Source of the DNA: Maricaulis sp.
GTDB taxonomy: Bacteria > Pseudomonadota > Alphaproteobacteria > Caulobacterales > Maricaulaceae
Assembly: GCF_030149515.1 (NCBI RefSeq)
Contig: NZ_JASBRI010000017.1
Coordinates: 1 to 64,000, forward strand
Direction: 5' to 3'
Length of the DNA: 64,000 nucleotides
Below the pieces are notes generated by a model. The model had not been told where the DNA came from, made no database searches, and worked only from the letters and a program-made list of their open reading frames with translations. Position 1 is the first letter of the stretch, and the number at the start of each line of letters is the position of its first letter. A program made the position numbers and the translations under genes. Of this stretch, positions 28,834 to 35,673 are shown piece by piece.

Positions 28834-29919
28834 TCAGCCCGCGCTAGCGGCGGCCTCGTCTTCTCCGGAATCCGGGCCGGTGAGCATTTCCTCGGCAATC
28901 AGGCCGGCATTGGCGCGGACCTTCCTTTCGATCTCCGCGGAGATATCCGGATTGTCGAGCAGGAACTGGCGGGCATTTTCCCGGCCCTGTCCGATGCGCT
29001 CGGAATTGTAGGAGTACCAGGATCCCGATTTCTCGATCACATCGCCCTTGACGCCGAGATCGATCAGCTCGCCCATCTTGGAAATGCCCTCGCCGTAGAG
29101 AATGTCGAACTCGACCTCTCGGAAGGGCGGGGCGACCTTGTTCTTCACGACCTTGACCCGCGTCTGGTTGCCGATCACCTCGTCGCGATTCTTGATCGCG
29201 CCGATACGACGGATATCCAGGCGGACGGAGGAATAGAATTTCAGCGCATTGCCGCCGGTCGTGGTTTCCGGAGACCCGAACATCACACCGATCTTCATGC
29301 GGATCTGGTTGATGAAGATCACCAGGCAGTTCGATTTGGAGATCGAGCCGGTCAGCTTGCGCAACGCCTGGCTCATCAGGCGGGCCTGCAGGCCGGGCAG
29401 CGAATCGCCCATCTCGCCCTCGAGTTCGGCGCGCGGGGTGAGCGCGGCCACCGAGTCGATCACCAGCACATCGATCGCGCCGGAGCGCACCAGCGTGTCG
29501 GCAATCTCGAGTGCCTGCTCGCCGGCATCGGGCTGGGAGACCAGAAGTTCACCCACATCCACGCCCAGCTTGCCGGCATAGACCGGGTCGAGTGCGTGCT
29601 CGGCATCGACGAAGGCAGCGACCCCGCCGGCCTTCTGCGCTTCGGCCACGGTGTGCAGGGCCAGCGTCGTCTTGCCCGAGCTCTCCGGACCGTAGATCTC
29701 GACAATCCGCCCCTTCGGCAGGCCGCCGATACCCAGGGCAATGTCCAGCCCCAGAGAGCCCGTGGATATTGATTCGATATCCACATTCGGACGCTGGCCG
29801 AGCTTCATCACCGAGCCCTTGCCGAACGCCTTGTCGATCTGGCTCAACGCGGCCTCGATGGCCTTCTGCTTGTCGGTGTTCTTGTCGTCCTTCACGAGTC
29901 GAATCGCGCCCTTGCTCAT
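28834..29919 (-). CDS. recA: Recombinase RecA
   Basis: 361 aa. Walker [10 protein letters not shown], Walker [10 protein letters not shown] and the DNA-binding loops are present, with the acidic C-terminus usual for RecA. It mediates homologous recombination and LexA cleavage in the SOS response. AGAAGG precedes the ATG. An alphaproteobacterial LexA box lies 70 bp upstream. Confidence 0.98.
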
Positions 29920-29989
29920 AGCCTTCTTCCCTTATTTCACGCCCCCGGGATGCGGGCAACCGAGGTCAGGCGTACCAGTTTTGTTCCGG

Positions 29990-30004
29990 GAACACAAGCG
30001 GAAC
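29990..30004 (-). promoter_or_regulatory. LexA (SOS) box upstream of recA
   Basis: On the minus strand GTTC-CGCTTGT-GTTC exactly fits the alphaproteobacterial LexA box GTTC-N7-GTTC. A further GTTCCGGGAAC palindrome (29983-29993) overlaps its end. The position fits repression of recA. Confidence 0.85.
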
Positions 30005-30094
30005 ATCTTATGGTTAACAAAACGGAACAAAGCCCGATTCCGGCACCCCGGCGAGTGATTGATCCAGCCCGAAAACCAACTAGACTTCGGTCCC

Positions 30095-31465
30095 ATGGGA
30101 CATTTCAGCCGCCGCCTGATACAGGGGCTTGCCCTTGCTGCAACGGCCGCAGCGCTTGCGGGCTGCGGGCCGCCGCAAACCGGTCTGGACGACGCCTCGA
30201 TGGCAGATATCCGGACACGCGGGGCGCTGGTAGTGCTGACCCTGGAGGGGCCGACAACCTACACGGTCGAGAATGGCGAGCCGGCCGGATACGAGGTCGA
30301 CCTTGCCCGCGCCTTTGCCGGTTACCTGGGCCTGGATGTACGCTTCGAGACACGCCGGGACATCGACGGTCTGCTAGACAGTCTGGAGCGCGGTGAGGGT
30401 CACCTGGCCGCGGCCAATCTGACGGTGACGCCTGCACGGCGAGACCGGGTGACTTTCGGTCCGGCCTACAAGGCGGTCACGGAAGAGCTGATCTGCCGCC
30501 GCGGGGGGCGTGCCCCGACACGGTTCGAGGACCTGCCGGGGACATCGATCCGGATCCTGGCCGGGTCCAGTTACGAGGAGACGCTGGAAAGCCTGGCCGC
30601 CGACCATCCCGAATTGCGCTGGAGTGCGCGCACGGCGGGTTCGGCCATGCCGCTGCTGGCCGGTGTCGATCGCGGCACCTTCGACTGCACGGTGTCCGAT
30701 TCCCATCTCGCCGACTTCGCCCGGCGGCGGTATCCCGAACTGGACGTGGCGATGGAACTGACCGAAGAACGCCCGCTTGCCTGGGCGCTCAATGCCGGGA
30801 TCGAAGGCCTGGACGCGGCTTTGGCGGACTGGTTTGCACAGGCGCACGGCGACGGGCTGCTGGCGGAGCTGGACGAACGCTGGTTCGGACGTTTCGGCGA
30901 ATTCGACTATGTCGATGTTGCGTACTTCGTCCGGCGGGTCCAGGAGCGCTTGCCCGACTACCGTCCGGCCTTCGAACGGGCCGCCGAGACCGTCCCGTTC
31001 GACTGGGAATTGCTGGCCGCGCAGGCCTACCAGGAATCCCACTGGGACCCCGACGCCGTCAGTGCGACGGGCGTGCGCGGCCTGATGATGCTCACCCTTT
31101 CGACGGCCGAACGCGTGGGGATCGAAGACCGCACAGACCCCTATCAGAGCATCGAGGGCGGCACGGCCTATCTCGCCGAACTCTATGAACGCGTACCGGA
31201 AGAGGTGACCGGCGAGGACCGGATCTGGTTCGCCCTGGCGGCCTATAATGTCGGCATGGGCCACATGTACGATGCCCGCGCACTGGCGGAGCGGCTGGGC
31301 CGCGACAAGAATGCCTGGAACGATCTTGCCGCCACCCTGCCCCTGCTCTCGGACCCGGCCTATTACCAAACCCTGCGCTATGGCTATGCCCGCGGACACG
31401 AACCGGTGCGCTATGTCGAAAAGATCCGCGAATACCGCACCCTGCTGGACGCACAGGGGCTTTAG
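30095..31465 (+). CDS. mltF: Membrane-bound lytic murein transglycosylase F (MltF-like)
   Basis: 456 aa. A lipoprotein signal ending at LAGC is followed by a periplasmic solute-binding (SBP_3-like) domain (VLTLEGPTTYTVENGEPAGYEVDLARAF) and a C-terminal SLT lysozyme-like domain. The catalytic Glu is in QAYQESHWDPDAVSATGVRGLMMLT. It cleaves peptidoglycan to 1,6-anhydromuropeptides. I chose the ATG at 30095 over the frame start 30059 because the lipoprotein signal begins there. It is divergent from recA. Confidence 0.9.
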   Translation: MGHFSRRLIQGLALAATAAALAGCGPPQTGLDDASMADIRTRGALVVLTLEGPTTYTVENGEPAGYEVDLARAFAGYLGLDVRFETRRDIDGLLDSLERGEGHLAAANLTVTPARRDRVTFGPAYKAVTEELICRRGGRAPTRFEDLPGTSIRILAGSSYEETLESLAADHPELRWSARTAGSAMPLLAGVDRGTFDCTVSDSHLADFARRRYPELDVAMELTEERPLAWALNAGIEGLDAALADWFAQAHGDGLLAELDERWFGRFGEFDYVDVAYFVRRVQERLPDYRPAFERAAETVPFDWELLAAQAYQESHWDPDAVSATGVRGLMMLTLSTAERVGIEDRTDPYQSIEGGTAYLAELYERVPEEVTGEDRIWFALAAYNVGMGHMYDARALAERLGRDKNAWNDLAATLPLLSDPAYYQTLRYGYARGHEPVRYVEKIREYRTLLDAQGL

Positions 31466-31470
31466 AAGAA

Positions 31471-32439
31471 CTATTTGAGGGCCGTCGAGGGATACTCGTT
31501 GAAGACACGGCGATATATCTGAGAGAAGCGCCCGTGGTGCCTGAATCCGAAGTACGGCGCGATATCCGCTACCTTTGTCGAATATGGATTGGCACGTTTG
31601 AGTGCCGATCTCACATAGCCGAGCCGCTGCATGAGATGCCATTGCTTCGGGCTCATACCGAGATGCCGTCCGACGGCGAACTCGATCCGTTTTGCCGATG
31701 TTCCGACGAGCGAGACGAGCTCCTCCTTGGATAAGGACCTGTGCCGGACGGTCGAAAAGACAGTTGCCGCGCGCGACAGCACAAGCTGGTCGGGTTCGGC
31801 CGAACAGGTGGATTCACCGCGAATGAATTTCTGGATGTCCTGCTTGACTGCGTCCTCGATCCGCACCAGCCGGTGAGAAAGTTCATTCAGATCCGATATT
31901 TTGCCGTGGTCCCATGAGCCCCCCTCGGACCCTTCCATGCTGTCCCACAATGCATAGACGGCGTCGGTGAGATGATCCTTGCGGGCCCAGTTGTAGACAC
32001 GGATAAGCTGCTCATACGGCTCACGCGTCACGTTGACCGAGGACAGCACCTGTCCGACGGATTGCCCCATGAGGGCAAACACGAGGTAGTCCGCCCCGTC
32101 CGGCACGTGGGCAATACACTCGTCCTCCACGGCACCCACCGCTCCCCCGCAGGGAGTCACATGGCTGATCGCCTTAACCGGCCGGCCGCGAACCGGAATC
32201 GACAGCAACAATGCGGGGTCCCGGGAATAGGCTGAAATGAGGCAGGCGGATTGCTTAACACGCGCACAGGCGAGACGCGGCGCCCCCCTCTCGTCCAGCA
32301 CCTGGAAGCCCTTCCGCTCGCAATTGTACGCTCCCGTAACGGGCACAATCGTAACGCGGTCCAGCCCCAGGATCTCATTCATGTACTGGATCGTATCATC
32401 AACGTTAGTTGTTGTTTTATTGTAGTAAGCAATCCTCAC
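31471..32439 (-). CDS. AraC-family transcriptional regulator
   Basis: 322 aa. The last ~100 residues are an AraC double helix-turn-helix: LSKEELVSLVGTSAKRIEFAVGRHLGMSPKQWHLMQRLGYVRSALKRAN..VADIAPYFGFRHHGRFSQIYRRVFNEYPS. The N-terminal ~200 residues are a sensor part with no recognisable ligand motif. The GTG at 32439 is chosen because GAAGG lies 7 nt upstream. It is third on the strand after the BLUF and EAL-like genes with an 83-nt gap, so it may be part of one signalling unit. Confidence 0.85.
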   Translation of the reverse strand: MRIAYYNKTTTNVDDTIQYMNEILGLDRVTIVPVTGAYNCERKGFQVLDERGAPRLACARVKQSACLISAYSRDPALLLSIPVRGRPVKAISHVTPCGGAVGAVEDECIAHVPDGADYLVFALMGQSVGQVLSSVNVTREPYEQLIRVYNWARKDHLTDAVYALWDSMEGSEGGSWDHGKISDLNELSHRLVRIEDAVKQDIQKFIRGESTCSAEPDQLVLSRAATVFSTVRHRSLSKEELVSLVGTSAKRIEFAVGRHLGMSPKQWHLMQRLGYVRSALKRANPYSTKVADIAPYFGFRHHGRFSQIYRRVFNEYPSTALK

Positions 32440-32522
32440 ACTCACACCTTCCCGGACTTTTCGCCCCTGTGTCGGTGATGAAGAAAATCGTTTCAAGGCA
32501 AGAGGAAGTTTCCCGGCGCCTT

Positions 32523-33821
32523 TTATCCATGAGGCATGTCTTCTGTCGAAAAACCGGACAGCAGCGGCTTTCGGCACAGAGCGCCTCTGCAATCGGAACG
32601 CACCGGCTGGGGTCCTGGTTCCCTCAGCGCTCCCGAAAACGGATCGTGCAGGCGCATCCGGGGAATCGTCCCCGTGGGCTGCCCGAACACATCTCCGGCG
32701 GCGAAGGACACCTGTGAATCGACCATGTGCCGCAGCAGACGGGTTGTATGACAATCCAGCATGCCCAGCTTGATGCCCCGCATCCGGAGATACCCCTTCA
32801 CCAGACCGTAGCGGCGCAACCAGTCGCTTCCGGGCATCGGACCGGGGGACGGAAAGAGAAAGCCGTCCAGCCGTGCATCCGCGAAACGCTCCAAACGCAA
32901 GCTCTGCAGATCAACATCGAACAGCACGCGTGGGCAACATGCCCGGGCCAGCCGCGTCACCTCTGTAAAACTTCGGGACGGCGCGTCGGCCGGCGCTCCG
33001 ACAATCCTCAGATACACATTCGAGAGCGTCCCGGCCGGCAACTGCATGAGATCGGCGAGATAGGGCTGGCGATGCCTGGGCGTCACCAATGTAGAGAAGT
33101 GGACGGGTACGATAACGGGACAGGCTGTTGGCGAAAGATCGGCCTCGATGGAGCAAAGTACTCGTGCGAGGACCGCGCTGTCGAACTCATGAACGGTGGA
33201 AGTCGACACATCGCCTTGCAGCACACGATGATAGGTCCGCACGCCATGGCGTCTTGCCGTGGATACCGGCTCGGCCAAACATGCTGCTATGCAGCTCGAC
33301 GCGGCCGCCCAGAAAGGCCTGTAGACCAGCGAAAAGTACGGCAAGCCGGGCACGCTGGCCGCCTGCTGTGTCTGGATCGGAGTCTCGCGCGGCGCAGCGT
33401 CTTCAACCAGCCCGCTCCCGTCTCTCCCAAGCAGATCGGTTGCCGCCAGCTGGACGTTCCGGCTGGAAATCTGGACGGTGTCGAATTCGGACGAACCGAG
33501 AAAGAACTCCGACAGCTCGGTCTGTATACGTTGACGCTGCAGCTCGATATCGCCGCCCATGTCCGGGTCGAGGAAAACAAGAAATCCGTCGGCAAGCGAA
33601 ACTACCAGTCCGTTCGTCCCGACGCGCTTGGACAGGAACATCTCGCAAGTATCGAATATCCGGCGCTTCCTGCGCGGCCACTCGTCGCCGTAGAGCCTGG
33701 CCAGCGCGTCCAGATTGAGCAGATGGTAATGGGTCGCATCGACTTGCTCACGCGACGAGACAAGCCGGCGCAGCCTCACCGGATCGCAGGGAAGTTGACC
33801 TGGATACATCACATTTCCCAT
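32523..33821 (-). CDS. Protein with degenerate EAL-like C-terminal domain
   Basis: 432 aa of unusual composition. The last third (FDVDLQSLRLERFADARLDGFLF..., then RGIKLGMLDCHTTRLL... SFAAGDVFGQP) aligns by pattern with the end of EAL phosphodiesterase domains (VAEGVET...QGYLFGRP), but the catalytic Glu and the EAL signature are missing. A middle strand resembling GGDEF remnants (LVVSLADGFLVFLDP) lies near residue 72. I infer a non-catalytic c-di-GMP-related or protein-binding role. It sits between BLUF and AraC genes; BLUF domains often couple to EAL domains. Confidence 0.6.
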   Translation of the reverse strand: MGNVMYPGQLPCDPVRLRRLVSSREQVDATHYHLLNLDALARLYGDEWPRRKRRIFDTCEMFLSKRVGTNGLVVSLADGFLVFLDPDMGGDIELQRQRIQTELSEFFLGSSEFDTVQISSRNVQLAATDLLGRDGSGLVEDAAPRETPIQTQQAASVPGLPYFSLVYRPFWAAASSCIAACLAEPVSTARRHGVRTYHRVLQGDVSTSTVHEFDSAVLARVLCSIEADLSPTACPVIVPVHFSTLVTPRHRQPYLADLMQLPAGTLSNVYLRIVGAPADAPSRSFTEVTRLARACCPRVLFDVDLQSLRLERFADARLDGFLFPSPGPMPGSDWLRRYGLVKGYLRMRGIKLGMLDCHTTRLLRHMVDSQVSFAAGDVFGQPTGTIPRMRLHDPFSGALREPGPQPVRSDCRGALCRKPLLSGFSTEDMPHG

Positions 33822-33895
33822 CTATCTGCCTGCTTGGGGCACTTGCTGGCTGATCGACTACCCGCTCGCCCACCGAATACGCCCCAATTGGTGAC

Positions 33896-34366
33896 TTAGG
33901 CGCGAGCCTTTTGAATGAGACGCTCGGGACCCGACGAGTTCGGACACGGCCTGCCGATCTGTTCGCGGAGCCGATGCAGTATCCGGCGCCTCACCGCATC
34001 GGCTACGGCATTATTGCTTTCGTCGAGTTTGTTGACCCCGAGCACCTCACCCCACGGATTGAGGATCGTCAGGGGATGTCCAGAAAACCCTCTGCACCAA
34101 TTCCACCCCTCGGAAACCACTCGAATATCCTGGTGGTGCTCGTTGCAGTAGAGCCTCTCCATGAGATTATCCACCTCAATCTCGGGCCCCTCGATTACTT
34201 GGACGAAGCGCCGGGCCTCGCACAACAAGACACTGGTGATTCTATCTCTGAAATTATTACGACGCCCGACTTCATGTATGGAGGCAAGAATATTCGGGAT
34301 ATTACGCAAAGAAAGTCTTGAACACAACTCACTTGTATAAATTATTTCCTTTATATTAACGCTCAT
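33896..34366 (-). CDS. BLUF-domain blue-light sensor protein
   Basis: 156 aa. The flavin-binding residues of BLUF proteins are present: Tyr10 (IIYTS), Asn38 (RRNN) and Gln56 (FVQVIEG). The N-Q spacing of 18 is canonical. The Y-N spacing is 28 rather than 24, from a 4-residue insertion in the first helix, and the usual ITG is ITS. There is no output domain, only a ~55-residue helical tail. GAGGTAAGC precedes the ATG. Function is inferred as a photoreceptor that signals through its neighbours. Confidence 0.85.
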   Translation of the reverse strand: MSVNIKEIIYTSELCSRLSLRNIPNILASIHEVGRRNNFRDRITSVLLCEARRFVQVIEGPEIEVDNLMERLYCNEHHQDIRVVSEGWNWCRGFSGHPLTILNPWGEVLGVNKLDESNNAVADAVRRRILHRLREQIGRPCPNSSGPERLIQKARA

Positions 34367-34671
34367 TGCTTACCTCAGTTTCAAAACTTTACTTGCACCA
34401 AATTTTGATCATTGAGGCGATGTATCGTGCTCTATATTCGTAAATATATTACATAATTGCACTATCCAGAATTCTTTATACCGACGTCATTTATGTACAT
34501 TGATAGAGCTTGCTTTTGTAATATCTAAAGACCTTGCCTGCAGGTGCCGATGGCACGCGCACCGATGCGCCAAAACAGGGCCCAGTCTCACAGGGAGGCT
34601 TCATAACAATCGTGTTCGCTCGCGGCATGCCGGTCCCTGCCGCGCGCGCTCAACCTGCTCGGCTTTGACCG
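34367..34671. other. AT-rich non-coding block upstream of the BLUF gene
   Basis: A 300-bp stretch that is strikingly AT-rich (especially about 34370-34520) in an otherwise GC-rich sequence. I see no supportable open frame. Runs such as ATATTCGTAAATATATTACA suggest a promoter or a scar from acquired DNA. It may drive the BLUF-EAL-like-AraC group. Confidence 0.55.
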
Positions 34672-35547
34672 CTATTCCGGCGCGTCCGGCACCTCGGGCA
34701 GGTAGTCCAGCGGATTGACAAGCGTGACCCAGGGGGACTGGTCGGCCAGGTGACGCAGGATGGCCGCATGGCCCTGCCCGACGACGACCAGAACGCGGTC
34801 GCCCTGGCGGTCTTCGACCTGTTTGAGGATATTCTGGAAGATGAGGATATTGCGCGTGTACCAGTTGCCGACGGTATGGGCGCCGCCGGCATTCCCGTCG
34901 GCTCCCCAGCGGCGGATGGAATAGGCCAGGTAGAAGTCGTGATTGGCGTCCAGCGCCGCATCCGTATTCATCCAGGCCAGCACTTCGCCGACGGTATGAG
35001 CCGCCTGCCGGGCCTCGGTCTCGGCCGTGAAACCGCGTCCGAGCGCATCCGACGCCGCCTCGACCTCGGCGAGATGCGGGTCGGGCCCGCCGCCGGCCAG
35101 TTCCCGGTAGGCCAGGAGTAGGTCTTCATAGGCCATGAAACGATGGCTCGCATCGACAGGGGCGACGCTGTCGAGATCCATCATGCCGGCCAGGCGGAAA
35201 CCGATCTGCTGGCGTTCATTGACCGTCAGCTCCGCCTCGCCCGCCCTCCAGTCTGCATAGCGCTCGTTGATATCCGAGCCCGGATCGGCTTCGACGGCCA
35301 CGATGGTCGGCCGGAATTCGGCCAGACGGTCGGCCAGGGCCTCGATCTCGGCCTGGCGCCGCGGCGAGAGCATGTCGTCGGCCTGAGCGTTGTACCGGTC
35401 GCGGCCCGGATTGGCGAAATGATACGTCCCCAGGATGAGGATTTCGGCGACCGGTTCGGGCCGCGGCGGGGTCTGGGCCGGCGCCGCCGGCGACAGGGCG
35501 AGCGGGCCGATAGCAGCCAGGGCTGCGACGAGAGCTGTGCGGATCAT
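34672..35547 (-). CDS. DUF5694 (TraB/PrgY-like) secreted protein
   Basis: 291 aa. A signal peptide (MIRTALVAALAAIGPLALSPAAPA) is followed by the TraB-like/DUF5694 opening ILILGTYHFANPGRDRYN and a C-terminal VLVVVGQGHAAILRHL, both strongly conserved GxYH/GxGH patterns. Proteins of this type may be metal-dependent hydrolases. The start at 35547 follows GGGGACAAGG; an in-frame ATG at 35559 is also possible. Confidence 0.78.
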   Translation of the reverse strand: MIRTALVAALAAIGPLALSPAAPAQTPPRPEPVAEILILGTYHFANPGRDRYNAQADDMLSPRRQAEIEALADRLAEFRPTIVAVEADPGSDINERYADWRAGEAELTVNERQQIGFRLAGMMDLDSVAPVDASHRFMAYEDLLLAYRELAGGGPDPHLAEVEAASDALGRGFTAETEARQAAHTVGEVLAWMNTDAALDANHDFYLAYSIRRWGADGNAGGAHTVGNWYTRNILIFQNILKQVEDRQGDRVLVVVGQGHAAILRHLADQSPWVTLVNPLDYLPEVPDAPE

Positions 35548-35673
35548 CCTTGTCCCCATTTGCGTCTTCGCGGATGAGATGCGCGACGGCAGGGTTATGG
35601 ATGCAGGCCCCGGCGAGGCCGTGGAACCCGGAAACGATTTTGCGCACGGGATCGGGGGCGTTTTCCGTTTTTT

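Follow-up and report, generated by a model that had tools for sequence, protein, structure and literature searches.

A short BLUF protein and a degenerate GGDEF-EAL protein as candidate halves of a blue-light switch in Maricaulis sp.

In a stretch of 64,000 nucleotides from Maricaulis sp. (contig NZ_JASBRI010000017.1, in the following the window), three neighbouring minus-strand genes encode a short BLUF protein, a 432-residue protein that is here called DEAL, and an AraC-type regulator. The genes of BLUF and DEAL are a two-gene unit of the bacterial family Maricaulaceae, normally in the order DEAL then BLUF. It is rather probable, though far from certain, that both proteins are the halves of a split blue-light switch, in which DEAL serves as a contact adaptor and the AraC-type regulator is a possible local output. 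Number and strand of the genes, their coordinates and spacings, and the residues Tyr10, Asn38 and Gln56 of the BLUF protein are all as a sequence-only reading of this DNA had given them.

The gene pair in related genomes

The family survey comprised 137 genomes, including that of the window. The closest relatives of the window DEAL were found in three other genera, with 31-37% identical amino acids (44% on one short piece from genome G031). In a tree of 30 DEAL-family proteins, the window DEAL grouped with ten DEALs of a BLUF-linked clade (support 100/100); the clade label includes the protein from genome G027, and that from G031 lies outside the tree and was counted into the clade by similarity. 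Profile scores ranged from 379 to 632 bits within the clade and reached at most 224 bits in other members of the family, but 11 of the 12 clade members are themselves rows of the query profile.

A BLUF gene adjoins 11 of the 12 clade DEAL genes and none of 74 other DEAL-family stretches (Fisher p 5e-13, uncorrected for relatedness). This count is based on 87 distinct DEAL stretches, de-duplicated via shared 200-nt DNA, and at some of the counted loci only about 0.5 kb was available on one side of DEAL. Since the DEAL frame of G031 is broken and yields two stretches, the 12 stretches with BLUF correspond to 11 genes; subtraction of these 12 and of G027 leaves the 74 others. The EAL and GGDEF reference loci stayed outside the count, as did the loci L100-L107, all of which except L107 are contigs of genomes already counted; the uncounted L107 carries a partial DEAL and a BLUF gene.

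In ten relatives, DEAL always precedes BLUF on the same strand, and in G081 the two genes overlap via ATGA. The gene sucA adjoins the pair in seven of these ten, and in four sucD lies on the opposite side too; both neighbours likewise occur in G027. The named contigs on which both genes occur come from Marinicauda pacifica, Glycocaulis profundi and Alkalicaulis satelles as well as from four metagenome-assembled genomes (MAGs; one of them with a partial DEAL only), and a contig of Glycocaulis albus carries DEAL without a neighbouring BLUF gene. Glycocaulis is a genus of the Maricaulaceae within the Caulobacterales (PMC11559359). The earlier proposal that the sensor and its EAL-like partner are separate proteins is borne out by these adjacent genes in ten relatives from three other genera.

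In the Glycocaulis MAG G031 (locus L099), the DEAL gene is split over two frames and the adjoining BLUF frame is open. The frame break is either real decay or an assembly error.

Predicted folds and probable role of DEAL

DEAL showed no match at all in Pfam. The EAL profile (PF00563) did not match the window protein, its curated cut-off thus not being reached, and gave hits at E ≤ 1 in four of the 30 family members (best 0.0013). The GGDEF profile (PF00990) matched one of the 30 (E 0.012), and in the alignment the GG(D/E)EF motif is replaced by AD-GF in the window DEAL. The BLUF protein passed the curated cut-off of PF04940 (60.3 bits, cut-off 25), so that of the two domains named beforehand the profiles recovered BLUF and missed EAL. 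The EAL barrel fold was found in the predicted structure of the 432-residue protein, as the sequence-only reading had suspected, together with a cyclase-like (GGDEF) fold in the N-terminal part. Since this N-terminal part is predicted to fold like GGDEF, the most probable reading of DEAL is a GGDEF-EAL protein with both domains degenerate, which is more than a dead EAL protein. The best structural match was LapD (identity to the matched structures 7-15%), and the best sequence match was FimX.

At the nine positions which we take to be the canonical catalytic ones of EAL domains, the window DEAL has lost eight according to the alignment. Glu is replaced by Leu182, Asn by Pro239 and two further Glu residues by Arg272 and Gly275; the second Asp falls into a gap, Lys, the late Glu and Gln are altered, and Asp302 is retained. 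In comparison to the EAL domains encoded in the same genome, the window DEAL is also altered at almost every conserved position of the active site, and Glu is missing from the EAL Glu column in 10 of 11 aligned clade DEALs. Judging from these residues, the EAL part appears to be catalytically dead, as first proposed. An active EAL phosphodiesterase was rejected for the window protein because the catalytic residues are missing, and such an activity is nearly excluded.

In Rhodopseudomonas palustris, the short stand-alone BLUF protein PapB regulates the separate EAL protein PapA by complex formation (PMC8846402). In both cases, a short BLUF protein and an EAL-fold protein are encoded by separate, adjoining genes. 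A switch of the PapB-PapA type, where BLUF would regulate actual hydrolysis of cyclic di-guanosine monophosphate (c-di-GMP) by the EAL protein, would agree with this split and with the Glu (context HEV) which G093, as one of the 11 aligned clade DEALs, has at the EAL Glu column. Given the catalytic residues lost from the window DEAL, the Glu included, and the scarcity of this Glu in the clade, this explanation is very improbable. PapA is an active solo-EAL phosphodiesterase, whereas DEAL would consist of a GGDEF-like part and an EAL fold without catalytic residues.

The chief rival reading of DEAL takes it for a c-di-GMP receptor of the LapD/FimX type, which binds c-di-GMP but cannot cut it, and whose binding would be tuned by light through BLUF. 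Both of these best matches are degenerate EAL proteins that bind c-di-GMP (LapD: PMC5635695), a property that separates them from the contact adaptor proposed here. With 9 EAL and 10 GGDEF matches in the genome, c-di-GMP is probably present. The low identity to the matched structures and the altered active-site positions speak against a receptor, and we consider it unlikely. We know of no BLUF partner of LapD or FimX.

The split-switch reading regards DEAL as a contact adaptor instead of a c-di-GMP enzyme, because the protein lacks the GGDEF motif and nearly all EAL catalytic residues. The short BLUF protein would bind flavin adenine dinucleotide (FAD) and sense blue light, as is expected from its family, and would hand its state to DEAL via direct contact in a light-dependent BLUF-DEAL complex. 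A comparable case is BluF of Escherichia coli, whose degenerate EAL domain neither cleaves nor binds c-di-GMP and which contacts the regulator BluR (PMC3509220). Here as there, BLUF occurs with a degenerate EAL near the gene of a transcription factor, and BluF acts by contact; it differs in that BLUF and EAL form one chain, the regulator is MerR-like and a GGDEF part is absent, whereas the window encodes two proteins and an AraC-type neighbour. PixD-PixE (PMC5899715) and BlsA (PMC5955987) likewise involve short BLUF proteins that signal via a separate partner, but neither partner, a response-regulator-like protein in the one case and Fur in the other, has an EAL fold.

Because PapB-PapA and BluF-BluR are published precedents, BLUF-DEAL is a variant of a known arrangement, and the earlier statement that nothing comparable had been described does not hold. 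A split pair of BLUF and a doubly degenerate GGDEF-EAL protein, or the DEAL family, was not found in print in a limited search of open-licence PMC articles. Proteins of the degenerate GGDEF-EAL kind are frequent, and most of them still lack an explanation. Since the pseudoenzyme DEAL stands in a conserved pair with a sensor of known stimulus, light can be used to probe what it does. BLUF-DEAL would represent a naturally split sensor-adaptor pair in harmless marine bacteria, and the copies at the suc locus and the inserted copy of the window offer a natural experiment on the rewiring of such pairs to new outputs.

The inserted copy in the window genome

The trio of the window is a low-GC insertion of about 3.2 kb, the site of which is empty in two close relatives. 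In G009 and G018, the nearest relatives by the DUF5694 neighbour (74% identity), the transglycosylase and DUF5694 genes that flank the trio in the window are directly adjacent. Positions 31467-34676 are absent there; 16 nt stand in their place in L156, and 37 nt lie between the aligned flanks in L157. In the blastn comparison with L156, positions 29500-31466 and 34677-35478 align to stretches 16 nt apart. The GC content at third codon positions (GC3) of the trio is 0.60, 0.70 and 0.71. The other open reading frames (ORFs) of the window used for comparison, 41 in number and chosen by a custom ORF picker favouring high GC3, average 0.81; two of the 41 lie below DEAL and AraC and none below BLUF. 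Direct repeats at the ends of the insertion were not evident on inspection by eye, made without a repeat program. In the window genome, a re-ordered copy of the pair (BLUF, DEAL, AraC) is thus found inserted between genes which are direct neighbours in close relatives.

Several observations weigh against the split-switch reading. Beside the Glu of G093, these are the lack of an adjacent BLUF gene in G027, the sole clade member of this kind, and the gene order of the window, which is unlike that of all ten relatives. In the signal-relay strand, the window BLUF has His97 and Leu99, where Trp and Met are found in all ten aligned DEAL-linked BLUFs. These two residues, of which Trp is semiconserved, relay the light signal in other BLUF proteins. 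In PixD, a mutation of the Met reportedly locks the protein in its signalling state, and Trp104 of AppA is crucial (PMC5899715). Without the relay Trp and Met in its BLUF, the copy of the window could be altered, blind or locked; by analogy, its BLUF protein might be blind or locked, whereas the BLUFs of the relatives retain both residues.

The trees of the BLUF proteins point in the same direction. Both in a tree of 72 rows and in one of 58 rows, obtained after dropping 14 long or odd rows, the window BLUF stands on a long branch apart from the DEAL-linked BLUFs. When it was forced to join them, this was not rejected by the approximately unbiased (AU) test (p 0.058 with 72 rows, 0.33 with 58 rows). 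The ten linked BLUFs form a single clade at 73/77 in the 72-row tree, and two changes are needed in the 58-row tree. These trees neither support nor reject a kinship of the window BLUF to the BLUFs of the relatives, or a joint arrival of window BLUF and DEAL.

Finally, the AraC-type regulator was found in no other genome, neither in the family (1/137 at 1e-20, the own one; 0/136 others) nor in the class (1/385 sampled genomes at 1e-15, the own one; 0/384 others). A conserved three-gene module was rejected for this reason: the neighbourhood proposed by the sequence-only reading exists in relatives for BLUF and DEAL, and AraC has to be removed from it. That AraC is the local output of the window copy and under light control is a guess.

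The chief rival reading of the window copy is that the cluster is accidental or in decay, with an inserted, fast-evolving BLUF-DEAL pair that has become light-blind beside an unrelated AraC. This would be in line with the long end branches of both BLUF and DEAL, the lost relay residues, the low GC3 of the trio and the confinement of AraC to one genome. Furthermore, no DEAL of the window kind occurs in the 18 other genomes of the genus (best E 1.3e-23, paralogues), and in a second BLUF protein of the own genome Tyr, Asn and Gln are missing too. However, all three reading frames are intact, and the flavin-network residues are present in the aligned window BLUF; we consider such a cluster rather unlikely. 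An extension of the split-switch reading is possible but doubtful: a c-di-GMP-independent light switch with three separate proteins, in which a GGDEF-EAL pseudoenzyme would serve solely as the contact adaptor between a BLUF sensor and an output that is exchangeable (here AraC). The pseudoenzyme would belong to a widespread alphaproteobacterial family of degenerate GGDEF-EAL-like proteins, of which one branch is paired with BLUF and mobile as a small cassette.

In the second BLUF protein of the own genome (C8:8227-8403; L035 6617-7054), Tyr is replaced by Leu, Asn by Ser and Gln by Glu. It clusters in the tree with three BLUFs from other members of the genus, and these four possibly represent a pseudo-BLUF lineage, the residue losses having been seen in L035 alone.

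Features of the locus and the wider DEAL family

Of the two genes that flank the trio, the lytic-transglycosylase gene lies at 30059-31465 (+) and the DUF5694 gene at 34672-35559 (-).

Table 1. Features of the BLUF-DEAL-AraC locus (window positions).
Feature	Position	Strand	Evidence
BLUF, short, 156 aa	33896..34366	-	PF04940 E 2.1e-16; BLUF domain = residues 7-95
DEAL, 432 aa, most probably a GGDEF-EAL protein with both domains degenerate	32523..33821	-	groups with BLUF-linked DEALs, 100/100
GGDEF-like domain of DEAL, degenerate, residues ~26-126	33444..33746	-	without GGDEF motif
EAL barrel of DEAL, degenerate, residues ~160-380	32682..33344	-	
AraC-type regulator, 322 aa, GTG start at 32439 (start inferred)	31471..32439	-	HTH_18 E 4.8e-12
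Stretch of about 3.2 kb, flanked by convergent genes and missing from both of the closest relatives	31467..34676	.	blastn, gene order, GC3
AT-rich region 5' of BLUF, GC 0.475, presumed promoter region	34367..34671	-	composition

The AraC-type regulator passed the cut-off of HTH_18 (PF12833, C-terminal helix-turn-helix; 46.4 bits, cut-off 33.6). NCBIfam gave no name for BLUF or DEAL at E ≤ 0.5. The promoter scan found no consensus promoter on the minus strand of the AT-rich region. Promoter and terminator scans were no better than shuffles (1 in comparison to 1.1 and 3 in comparison to 3.3, respectively), and an operon is therefore neither supported nor excluded. A known RNA element was rejected, as Rfam yielded no match within 31000-35000.

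Among 72,556 plasmid records, DEAL had no match at 1e-5. AraC had 43 matches, all below 60% identity; the 15 listed had at most 32.8% identity, and none spanned 80% of AraC. Spread via plasmids was rejected on these grounds. Relatives of DEAL (E ≤ 1e-8) occur in 42 of the 385 sampled alphaproteobacterial genomes, the own one included, and BLUF was absent from the fetched flanks of all 29 class-level DEAL loci inspected (L260-L288).

Within the genus, DEAL-family members are present in all 19 genomes at E ≤ 1e-3. Recurring sites lie directly upstream of sucCD, with pairs in several genomes, and between the trigger factor gene and a TPMT-like methyltransferase gene; none of them has BLUF alongside. 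Members of this apparently dead GGDEF-EAL-like family thus adjoin genes of central metabolism. The DEAL-family loci of the genus are C4:291561-294096 and C25:23429-24238 in the own genome, and L033, L034, L036-L050 and L052.
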